Shown in pieces: positions 44,848-46,976 of a stretch of DNA of 64,000 bases. Position 1 is the stretch's first letter, and the number at the start of each line of letters is the position of its first letter. A program made the translations under genes and the position numbers. The notes under the pieces were generated by a model that did not search any database, was not told the DNA's origin, and saw only the letters and a list, made by a program, of their open reading frames with translations. Source of the DNA: Nocardioides cavernaquae (GTDB lineage Bacteria; Actinomycetota; Actinomycetes; Propionibacteriales; Nocardioidaceae). The stretch is taken from NCBI RefSeq assembly GCF_003600895.1, contig NZ_QYRP01000002.1, positions 124,001 through 188,000 on the forward strand. The letters run 5' to 3'.

Positions 44848-45422
44848 GGCCGCCGACTGTCCTGTCCGGCGTCCTCGTCGTCGTCGTCCTCGAACGGCGT
44901 CACGAGGCCAGGGCGGTCGGCGATGACGACCCGCCCACCGGCCACGTCGACCTCAGGCACGAGCGCGCTCACGAACGGGACCAGCGCATCACGCCGGTCC
45001 TCCGTGCGGATGGTCAGCAGGTCCTGTGCGCCGTGGACCAGCTTCGTCACGGTGCCGAGGAGCTTGCCCTCCAGGTCGTACGCCGCGAGGCCGATCAGCT
45101 GGTGGTCGTAGAACTCGTCCGGGTCGTCCGGCGTCTCGTCGGCGTCGACGGTCGCGTGCAGCAGCGTGCCCCGAACGGCCTCGGCCTGGTCCCGGTCGGT
45201 CATCTCGTCGAAGGTCGCCAGCAGGACGCCCTGGTGCCACCGGATCCGGTTGACGGTCAGCGCCCGCAGCCTGCTCGCGCTGTCCTTCGGCGGCGTCGCG
45301 GCCAGCTTGTTGCCGACCGCGAACCGGCGCTCCGGCTCGTCGGTCTTGACGTCGATGGTCACCTCGCCGCGAACGCCGTGGGGCTTGCCGATACGGCCGA
45401 TGAGGACCTCGATCTGGTTCAC
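44844..45422 (-). CDS. rimM: Ribosome maturation factor RimM
   Basis: Assists assembly of the 30S head with S19. The 192-residue protein has the N-terminal barrel ([20 protein letters not shown]) and the PRC-barrel C-terminal domain ([20 protein letters not shown], then [14 protein letters not shown]). The GTG at 45422 begins the homology and a TACCCT -10 element lies 7 bases upstream, next to the left inverted repeat of the AbiEi-like cassette. The C-terminus overlaps trmD. Confidence 0.95.
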
Positions 45423-45429
45423 GGGCTCA

Positions 45430-45435
45430 AGGGTA
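45430..45435 (-). promoter_or_regulatory. -10 element of rimM, leaderless
   Basis: TACCCT on the minus strand ends 7 bases before the GTG at 45422. Any -35 would fall in the palindromic start of the adjacent inverted repeat. Confidence 0.45.
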
Positions 45436-45443
45436 GTGGCTGG

Positions 45444-45513
45444 CAGATTCACCGGCCGACCGGTGAATCGGGCACATGTTGTGGCGTGCACCGCACAACC
45501 AGTGCCCGAATCG
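45444..45513 (+). repeat. Left 70-bp inverted repeat of the AbiEi-like cassette
   Basis: About 61 of 70 positions match the reverse complement of 46590-46659. Within the arm, ACCGGCCGACCGGT (45451-45464) is a near palindrome, and AATCGGGCAC...TGTTGTG pairs with CACAACC...GTGCCCGAAT (45466-45512), so each arm can fold on itself. Confidence 0.85.
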
Positions 45514-45537
45514 CGCACGAAGTCACGAAGTGCGGCG

Positions 45538-46482
45538 TCAGGCGGCCTGCGCGAGAACCCGCCGGATCATCGCGGCCGTGCGGGCGGGGTGCTCGAGGTC
45601 CGCCCAGGTGATGCGGATGCAGCGCCAGCCTGTGGCCCGCCGCAGTCGGTCCTCACGCTTCTTCTCACGGAAGACGGCATCACCAGGCTCCTCACCTTCA
45701 CGCAGAAACCGCTGGTACTTCGCCTTGCCGTCGAACTCCAGGAAGACGCCGAGCTCGGGCCAGGCAAAGTCGACCACTCCGACCAGGTCGCCGGTGGCGT
45801 CATACACCTCGTGCTGCGGGACCGGCATCGGCAGCCCCTGGCTCCACAGCAAGTACGACGTGCGGCTCTCCCCAGCAGACTCCATCCGACGGTCCATCAG
45901 ATGCAGGACAGCGTTGGTGCTGAGCGTGTGCGGCCAGTGGTCGATCGCCTGCGCATATCTCTCCCGAATGGCGGCGTCCGTGACCAGCCCCGAGTGGAGC
46001 AGATCGTTGATCGTCACGAGAGCCGCCTCCACACCGACCACAGTCGTGAGCTCAAGCGCCGCACGAACGGGTGCCATGACCTGGAAGTCGCCAACCGTCA
46101 CGACATCACCGTCGATGATCCGGCCGCGATGCTGGCGAACGCCCGCTGCACGCCCGACACTCCGGCCATCCAGGCGGGTCAGGTGGGGAATCTCCAGCGG
46201 GAGAGACCAGTGCGTCGCGGTGTGCTCCAGCACCGCGGACACATGCGAGAGCGCGACCGGGCGGTCGCAGCACCGGTACGCAGCGCGGGCCCGCACCCCA
46301 TGACGCTCCCGTGGGCTCATTGCCTCCCAAACGTCCGCGAACACGTACGCACCGTGACGCAGTCGCAGGATCACCCCAGCCCGCCGAAGCCTTCCGAGGG
46401 CATGGTCGTCGTACCCGGCCGCGAGCGCCTCCCGTCGGAGAAATGCACCCTTGGCCGCGCAGATGGCTCGCAGTTTGTCCAT
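45538..46482 (-). CDS. AbiEi-like winged helix / PD-(D/E)XK (DUF559-like) protein
   Basis: A 314-residue protein. Residues 1-55 resemble the AbiEi antitoxin N-terminal winged helix (DKLRAICAAKGAFLRREALA, RRAGVILRLRHGAYV). The C-terminal part has a Vsr/DUF559-type nuclease-like core: GVVDFAWPELGVFLEFDGKA places Asp238, Glu249 and Lys253 as a D...ExxxK site, then RRATGWRCIRITWADL. No AbiEii toxin partner is adjacent. It splits the rpsP-KH-rimM-trmD operon and is flanked by 70-bp inverted repeats, so it probably arrived as a unit. The start at 46482 is the best match to family N-termini; an upstream TTG is possible. Confidence 0.8.
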   Translation of the reverse strand: MDKLRAICAAKGAFLRREALAAGYDDHALGRLRRAGVILRLRHGAYVFADVWEAMSPRERHGVRARAAYRCCDRPVALSHVSAVLEHTATHWSLPLEIPHLTRLDGRSVGRAAGVRQHRGRIIDGDVVTVGDFQVMAPVRAALELTTVVGVEAALVTINDLLHSGLVTDAAIRERYAQAIDHWPHTLSTNAVLHLMDRRMESAGESRTSYLLWSQGLPMPVPQHEVYDATGDLVGVVDFAWPELGVFLEFDGKAKYQRFLREGEEPGDAVFREKKREDRLRRATGWRCIRITWADLEHPARTAAMIRRVLAQAA

Positions 46483-46589
46483 GCCGGGAGACTTCCCCGG
46501 TTCGCCGCCTGCCGGATCGGCGTGCGCGCGATCAGTGGAGGACAACTCGATTCACTCGACTGTGGATGAAGAGTGGCTCACTCCGCGCG

Positions 46590-46659
46590 CGAGTCGGGCA
46601 CCTGGAGTGCGGTGCACGGCACAACATGTGCCCGAATCACCGGCCGGCCGGTGAAACTG
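46590..46659 (-). repeat. Right 70-bp inverted repeat of the AbiEi-like cassette
   Basis: Reverse complement of the left arm with about nine mismatches; contains ACCGGCCGGCCGGT (46639-46652) and the same foldback stem with GTGCCCGAATC. No target-site duplication is obvious. It lies between the cassette gene and the KH gene terminator. Confidence 0.85.
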
Positions 46660-46673
46660 CAGGAGCAGAAATG

Positions 46674-46714
46674 CGCAACGGGCGCCGCTCCGTGAAGGAG
46701 CGACGCCCGTTGCG
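46674..46714 (-). terminator. Terminator of the rpsP-KH transcript
   Basis: CGCAACGGGCG and CCGCTCC pair with GGAGCG and CGCCCGTTGCG around a GTGAA loop, with a one-base mismatch. It lies 13 bases after the KH gene stop and separates it from the cassette and rimM. Confidence 0.75.
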
Positions 46715-46727
46715 TCGTACGTGCTTG

Positions 46728-46976
46728 TCAGCTGCGGCGGTCGACGTCCACGAAGTCGACCCGCGCGCCACCCTTGCCCGCGAGGGCAGAGACGACCGTG
46801 CGGAACGCGGACGCGGTGCGACCGCTGCGACCGATCACCTTGCCGAGGTCCTCGGGATTGACCCGGACCTCGAGCACGGAGCCGCGCCGGAGCTGCTTGT
46901 CCCGGACGACAACGTCGTCAGGGTGATCCACGATGCCGCGGACCAGGTGCTCGAGCGCGTCGGCCAGCATGCTCAC
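46728..46976 (-). CDS. khpA: KH-domain RNA-binding protein (KhpA/YlqC)
   Basis: An 82-residue single KH domain: [20 protein letters not shown], then [20 protein letters not shown] with the GRSG RNA-binding loop, and [19 protein letters not shown]. KhpA proteins act with KhpB in small-RNA and cell-size control in Gram-positives. The GTG start overlaps the rpsP stop as GTGA, the usual pairing, so the two are coupled. Confidence 0.93.

Follow-up and report, generated by a model that had tools for sequence, protein, structure and literature searches.

An AbiEi-like gene with a predicted Vsr-like nuclease domain and its own dispersed palindromes: a probable enzyme-and-repeat partnership in Actinomycetota

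Why should a single gene framed by two long inverted repeats stand between rimM and a KH gene? The case arises in a 64,000-nucleotide (nt) stretch of the Nocardioides cavernaquae genome (NZ_QYRP01000002.1, positions 124,001 to 188,000; hereafter, the window), where we read the neighbouring genes, from their sequence, as trmD, rimM, KH and rpsP. A sequence-only reading had explained the arrangement as a non-autonomous mobile cassette that moves a solo defence-type gene. The present analysis points to an enzyme-and-repeat partnership spreading through bacterial genomes, in which the nuclease encoded between the repeats probably acts on its own palindromes and both spreads and homogenises them. 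The association of this gene with its palindromes holds, and we regard it as practically certain.

The two repeats, or arms (Table 1), are real and slightly longer than the 70 nt originally claimed, namely 81 nt each and 86% complementary, with 1056 nt between them. Each arm consists of an outermost palindrome A (reading TTCACCGGCCGACCGGTGAA on the left and TCACCGGCCGGCCGGTGA on the right), a long hairpin B and a short tail C that faces the gene. The proposal that both arms fold on themselves stands for the left arm, in which folding far exceeds that of shuffled sequences (z -6.0 and -5.2 for the two strands, with 0/200 shuffles equal), but not for the right arm, where the same two hairpins are predicted at z -1.6 and -1.9, within reach of composition (13 and 7 of 200 shuffles). 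Tail C often echoes a portion of B's right stem (for example, in loci L037 and L060), which makes a second hairpin possible, though not consistently in all rows; a pairing of tail C with the left stem of hairpin B was rejected as inconsistent between aligned rows. A search of Rfam over positions 45200-46900 gave no matches up to E 1.

As the sequence-only reading had it, a single gene lies between the arms and, by gene reading and Pfam, no transposase is found there. The gene is AbiEi-like, is encoded on the minus strand and, by comparison with homologs, probably starts at the ATG at 46482. AbiEi_4 is the only Pfam family above its cut-off for the enclosed protein (E 1.3e-8) and matches 61/80 homologous proteins. 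The accompanying claim of a DUF559/Vsr motif survives as a Vsr-like predicted fold but not as a Pfam assignment: DUF559 does not match the window protein and is not among the three families matched by members of the set of 80 proteins at E 0.01. No NCBIfam model matches the window protein. In the predicted structure (predicted local distance difference test score 92.2, predicted template modelling score 0.87), the N-terminal part, which is also the part matched by the PADLOC AbiEi models, is AbiEi-like, with a winged helix and a nucleotidyltransferase-like core. The C-terminal part is predicted to be a PD-(D/E)XK domain of the Vsr/homing endonuclease type, its best match among the folds listed being the homing endonuclease I-Bth0305I, followed by Vsr. 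When Foldseek is used on its own, AbiEi is the one match that passes E 1e-3, and the top profile match among PDB sequences (4par_B, AbaSI) reaches E 0.058, so that the assignment as a nuclease relies on the predicted fold together with the motif. Residues D259, E270, D272, K276 and E294 are conserved and, with the predicted fold, match the acidic residues and lysine of a Vsr-type PD-(D/E)XK enzyme; among homologs found without search patterns, E270, D272, G273 and E294 never vary, and at least 90% have D259, K276 and Y277.

Copies of the arm elsewhere, which the sequence-only reading had suggested as a check, are numerous. With the left arm as query, 15 places in the host genome match at E 1.1e-15 or better, including both arms, that is, 13 further copies (solos, without the gene); weaker matches are mostly on the opposite strand or are single palindromes. 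The aligned copies have A, B and the start of C in common, two of them (L014 and L015) are A-B-A forms, and no pair among the 13 is closer together than 5 kb. One solo (L004 1501-1580; host genome C2:1772483-1772562) lies in frame inside an 887-aa open frame and hence may be translated as a linker; the protein is presumably an adenylation/carrier/acyltransferase fusion. The same genome contains four distant paralogs of the gene, 29-32% identical, with flanking repeats of their own (L032-L035, at C2:742765, 1609937, 779699 and 80824), and the repeat adjacent to L034 is also present at other places in this genome.

The site itself lacks the gene in relatives, again as the sequence-only reading would have it. 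We sought rimM in 30 genomes, the window's own included, and found it in 29. The rimM and KH orthologs are adjacent in relatives, and the gap between them is 97-236 bp in 18/18 genus loci (17 genomes) as opposed to 1308 bp here; in loci from the same order, it is 27-264 bp in 10/11, the remaining one having no KH gene less than 1.5 kb away. Of the 80 named homolog loci described below, none is next to rimM or KH. The whole arm-gene-arm unit was probably newly placed between these two genes. Judged by eye, the spacers of some other Nocardioides (L068, L074 and L077) hold different palindromic elements, so that this spacer may attract them; the L076 and L081 spacers, also by eye, have in common one palindromic element of yet another design. 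These comparisons bear on the possibility that the gene is old and that its arms terminate transcription in both directions and owe their spread to recombination. Such terminators could account for the GC-rich hairpins and for the many solos that, by eye, are located directly behind stop codons, but the terminator scan found a site only behind KH, outside the element and by eye present in relatives too, and none inside the arms; moreover, the gene is missing from this site in all 18 genus loci, and the arms differ between genes of one genome. We consider terminators highly improbable.

Homologs are found at E 1e-30 in 82/98 genus genomes including the window's own (81/97 of the others, at 33-54% identity), whereas the window's arm is found in only one other of these genomes, as a 32-bp piece. 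What recurs is the bracketing. In a first set, 29 of the 81 other genomes gave a locus, of which 28 were testable, and flanking inverted repeats were detected in 28/28 (E 1e-3), with a two-hairpin design like that of the window's arms and a different sequence. In a second set, comprising the best 80 of 327 confirmed loci, all from Nocardioides or Marmoricola, brackets are present in 75/80 at 40 bits or more, compared with 6/80 for mismatched flanks and 2/72 for distal flanks at 40 bits, and flanking repeats are found in 0/30 rimM loci. The two sets partly overlap (some arms are identical) and thus are not additive. Across 28 aligned left arms, two-sided changes occur in 24/28 stem pairs, and 85.8% of the stem cells pair, against 31-47% when slid, with 0/500 shuffles reaching any of the measures. 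Dyad symmetry is retained despite sequence change, which by itself would fit a hairpin and a protein-dimer site alike.

Could the arms be operators, through which the AbiEi-like part represses its own gene, as AbiEi and Rv2827c do, with the dispersed copies serving as further sites of a regulator or defence nuclease? Passages of PMC7319586 describe AbiEi-type proteins binding 23-bp inverted repeats upstream of their own genes; here, the 5' arm ends at a median of 120 bp before the matched start, and the symmetry is kept. An equal arm, however, lies behind the gene, at a median of 40 bp from the matched end, the copied units are whole stretches of about 80 nt with two hairpins rather than short sites, and solos are present in one species and absent from a related one. 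We hold a purely regulatory role to be improbable, although autoregulation may exist beside mobility.

The dispersed families are specific to the gene that they accompany. The joined arms of ten finished genomes were searched for in the same ten and in five other finished genomes that lack a homolog at E 1e-30, with up to 33 candidates scored per genome. The search gave at least 32 matches in G055, 32 in G063, 20 in G024, 18 in G001, 24 in G050, 5 in G047, 24 in G079, 33 in G065, 67 in G032 and 75 in G012, and 0, 0, 0, 0 and 2 in the five genomes lacking a homolog. Because matches are alignments on either strand, the copies are fewer than the matches. Among the matches listed, every row is chiefly on that genome's own arm, and the own family is dispersed in 10/10 genomes; four more genomes have 22, 24, 30 and 24 matches. 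Likeness between left and right arms within a gene exceeds likeness between genes in 13/13 genomes with at least two bracketed homologs, the between-gene scores being 0-26 bits in 11 genomes and 45-69 bits in URHA0020 and Yes46-02, which have close paralogs. Arms also correlate with the protein. In seven genomes (G001, G012, G047, G055, G063, G065 and G079), inspected by eye among the matches listed, no separate copies other than the pair around the nuclease gene stand within 2.5 kb of each other, with the exception of one extra neighbouring copy in G063.

The gene is mostly inherited in place, as a constant partner of changing arms. Sorted by site, the 80 loci form 33 groups, of which 13 are shared and 20 single (an upper bound, as the flanks of some loci are cut), and the gene tree requires 13 site changes for 14 labels, the minimum possible, versus 40.6 in shuffles. 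Sites 1, 2, 3, 8 and 11 do not each form one clade, in keeping with occasional moves of the gene, and brackets turn up at numerous unrelated sites. One orthologous site has arms that vary from species to species, with left and right in agreement within each species. The window gene clusters with L127, L170 and L178 (99/95), and URHA0020 has three paralogs at three sites. For L135/L144 and L144/L153, homology stops no more than about 10 bp from the outer ends of the arms; L135/L153 and, in another genome, L142/L152 have a homologous block without the 5' arm.

The arms, for their part, seem to spread mainly as solo units without the gene. The related genomes G506 and G507, in which the flanks of a shared gene are 86-93% identical, were compared at eight solo loci. 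For five of these (L241, L260, L249, L257 and L265), the site in the other genome is 75-141 bp shorter and lacks the element, incompletely so for L260, and with other unaligned sequence retained in the L249 counterpart; the remaining three (L252, L253 and L264) are common to both genomes. In G506, L244 and L248, which belong to different contigs, resemble a single stretch read in opposite orientations, either an assembly duplication or a true repeat.

In this light, the cassette proposed by the sequence-only reading, with a solo defence or toxin-antitoxin gene as the cargo of a non-autonomous transposon, has a slim chance of being correct. The PADLOC matches and the resemblance of the arms to terminal inverted repeats speak for it, but no toxin partner (AbiEii nucleotidyltransferase) is present between the arms, the neighbours being read as rimM and KH, and the protein has a nuclease domain in place of a toxin. 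Furthermore, the gene is inherited in place while the arms change, solos without the gene are the common form, and the target-site duplication that such an element might leave is not clearly seen either at the arm ends of the rimM-KH locus or in the five aligned solo sites. One suggestion of that reading, namely that the element may use its own nuclease, may well be right.

The association extends beyond the genus. A match at E 1e-20 is found in 79/396 phylum genomes, the window's own included, and of 28 testable loci in the other phylum genomes, 19 have flanking repeats at 40 bits or more, 13 of them inverted, whereas mismatched flanks give 0/28 in each of three shifts. Most of the 12 phylum repeats inspected are palindromic by eye (exceptions: L218, L225 and L233), and the repeats are dispersed in 8/12 genomes, with 47, 37, 16, 36, 35, 94, 64 and 15 matches. 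In G170, a 66-bp repeat beside the homolog (C1 around 2095526-2095659 and elsewhere) forms short overlapping runs and has 94 genome matches.

Taken together, we favour, with reasonable confidence, a partnership between nuclease and palindromes that has the layout of a REPtron built on an unrelated enzyme. The AbiEi-like part would most likely bind palindrome A of the arms, which is plausible because AbiEi-type proteins bind inverted repeats (in passages of PMC7319586), and the PD-(D/E)XK domain would most likely nick or cut the DNA at the A-B unit or next to it. As the ends so produced are repaired or replicated, single units of the form A-B-C or A-B-A would be copied into new places, most of them intergenic, and both arms of the gene would be kept alike; as a consequence of this homogenising and copying, enzyme and repeats would diverge jointly within each lineage. 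Occasionally, the whole arm-gene-arm unit would reach a new site. That the enzyme acts on its own repeats is likely, and we lean towards the view that it also drives their spread. The broadest version is evenly balanced: Actinomycetota would harbour phylum-wide replicators in which AbiEi-type binding proteins are combined with a homing-type nuclease, each having its own fast-changing palindrome family and each cutting, spreading and homogenising these palindromes by hydrolysis and ensuing repair, a route that has no relation to HUH or DDE chemistry.

Several observations weigh against this partnership. PD-(D/E)XK enzymes act on DNA by hydrolysis and are not known to join ends, so that host repair has to be assumed. 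From sequence, we infer that this protein binds, cuts and mobilises the repeats. The conservation of E270-Y277 in the 79-locus set is partly conditioned by its search patterns, and the folding of the right arm is matched by about 4-6% of its own shuffles. Brackets are missing at 40 bits in 5/80 named loci (L132, L141, L192, L198 and, at a contig end, L166) and in 9/28 phylum loci, and 6/19 phylum brackets are direct only; in 4/12 phylum genomes, the repeat hardly occurs away from the gene (5, 2, 2 and 2 matches). As a control, the five genomes lacking a homolog carry little weight, since arms are in any case genome-specific. Movement of the gene is rare, given that the gene tree largely follows the sites. 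Presence and absence of solos are compatible with insertion or deletion, the L260 counterpart retains a palindrome-like remnant of about 30 bp, and the flanks of the five solo sites without a clear target-site duplication have diverged. Finally, Y1 (RAYT) transposases are found in 0/98 genus genomes, Y1 being the only type sought among other movers.

This last scope, the inferred character of cutting and copying by the protein, and the near lack of dispersed copies for those four of 12 bracketed phylum genes leave some room for an unrecognised other enzyme that moves the palindromes, with the nuclease gene as a regular landing place or passenger. Such a mover is unlikely, considering that each gene has its own arm family even within one genome, that arms correlate with the protein, that brackets recur at many unrelated sites, that Y1_Tnp is absent from the 98 genus genomes and that, in the seven genomes noted above, the nuclease gene lies within the only close pair of copies among the matches listed.

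The surroundings of the element include TACCCT ahead of rimM, which may be a promoter element. The sequence-only reading had placed a -10 element of rimM nine bases outside the left arm; TACCCT does adjoin the arm but ends 7 bases from it, and a simple promoter scan found no promoter.

Table 1. Features of the arm-gene-arm element and its border in the window
Feature	Position	Strand	Remark
Left arm (palindrome A, hairpin B, tail C)	45443..45523	+	3' side of gene
Palindrome A, left arm	45448..45467		
Hairpin B, left arm	45468..45509		
Gene for AbiEi-like protein with predicted Vsr-like PD-(D/E)XK domain	45538..46545	-	335-aa open frame from TTG
Right arm (left-arm unit inverted)	46580..46660	-	5' side of gene
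Palindrome A, right arm	46637..46654		
Terminator-like hairpin behind KH gene, outside the element	46674..46714	-	from scan

If the proposed partnership is real, associations between an enzyme and palindromes arose more than once, via different chemistry, and these genes would be a source of sequence-specific nucleases whose targets change fast between relatives. The dozens of natural enzyme/repeat pairs make co-evolution of recognition directly testable, and AbiEi_4-domain genes without a toxin partner acquire a testable role. Among the matches listed from open-licence PMC titles and the starts of abstracts, preprints excluded, we found no description of AbiEi- or DUF559-type genes with palindromic repeats.

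Each half of the protein has known counterparts. Vsr and I-Bth0305I have the catalytic fold predicted here, but in the present protein it is joined to an AbiEi-like part and the gene is bracketed by palindromes; also, the gene is intergenic by position, not in an intron or intein. The AbiEi-like DNA-binding part is reminiscent of AbiEi and Rv2827c, antitoxins of type IV toxin-antitoxin systems, except that no toxin gene lies between the arms and a nuclease domain is added. VsrA of Caulobacter, a DUF559 Vsr-like protein with a related type of nuclease domain, is linked in passages of PMC12907096 to DNA damage in vivo in one mutant background; a term search of its main text gives 0 mentions of palindromes, and no AbiEi part is described in those passages. 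TIRtrons, IS200/IS605 elements and miniature inverted-repeat transposable elements (MITEs) likewise combine repeats around an enzyme gene with miniature forms lacking the enzyme, but here the enzyme class is another one and there is no clear target-site duplication; DDE-type insertion sequences and MITEs differ further in that the present element has no transposase. Dispersed palindromes are known with HUH partners, and passages of PMC3733652 report one repetitive extragenic palindromic (REP) superfamily without a dedicated transposase. The closest parallel is the REPtron, in which, according to parts of PMC8266576 and PMC3733652, a TnpA_REP/RAYT gene is bordered by REP palindromes, the repeats are dispersed at mostly intergenic places, enzyme and repeats co-vary, and the enzyme gene behaves like a housekeeping gene. 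Here too, an enzyme gene is flanked by palindromic repeats, cognate repeats are dispersed in the genome, and inheritance in place goes together with enzyme-repeat co-variation. The differences are an AbiEi plus PD-(D/E)XK protein instead of an HUH/Y1 enzyme (Y1_Tnp in none of the 98 genomes), the absence from the arm consensus of the GTAG tag, the two-hairpin units of about 80 nt and the actinomycetotal host. Because the defining HUH/Y1 enzyme was not found, the system described here is not a member of the REPtrons, though it may work like one.
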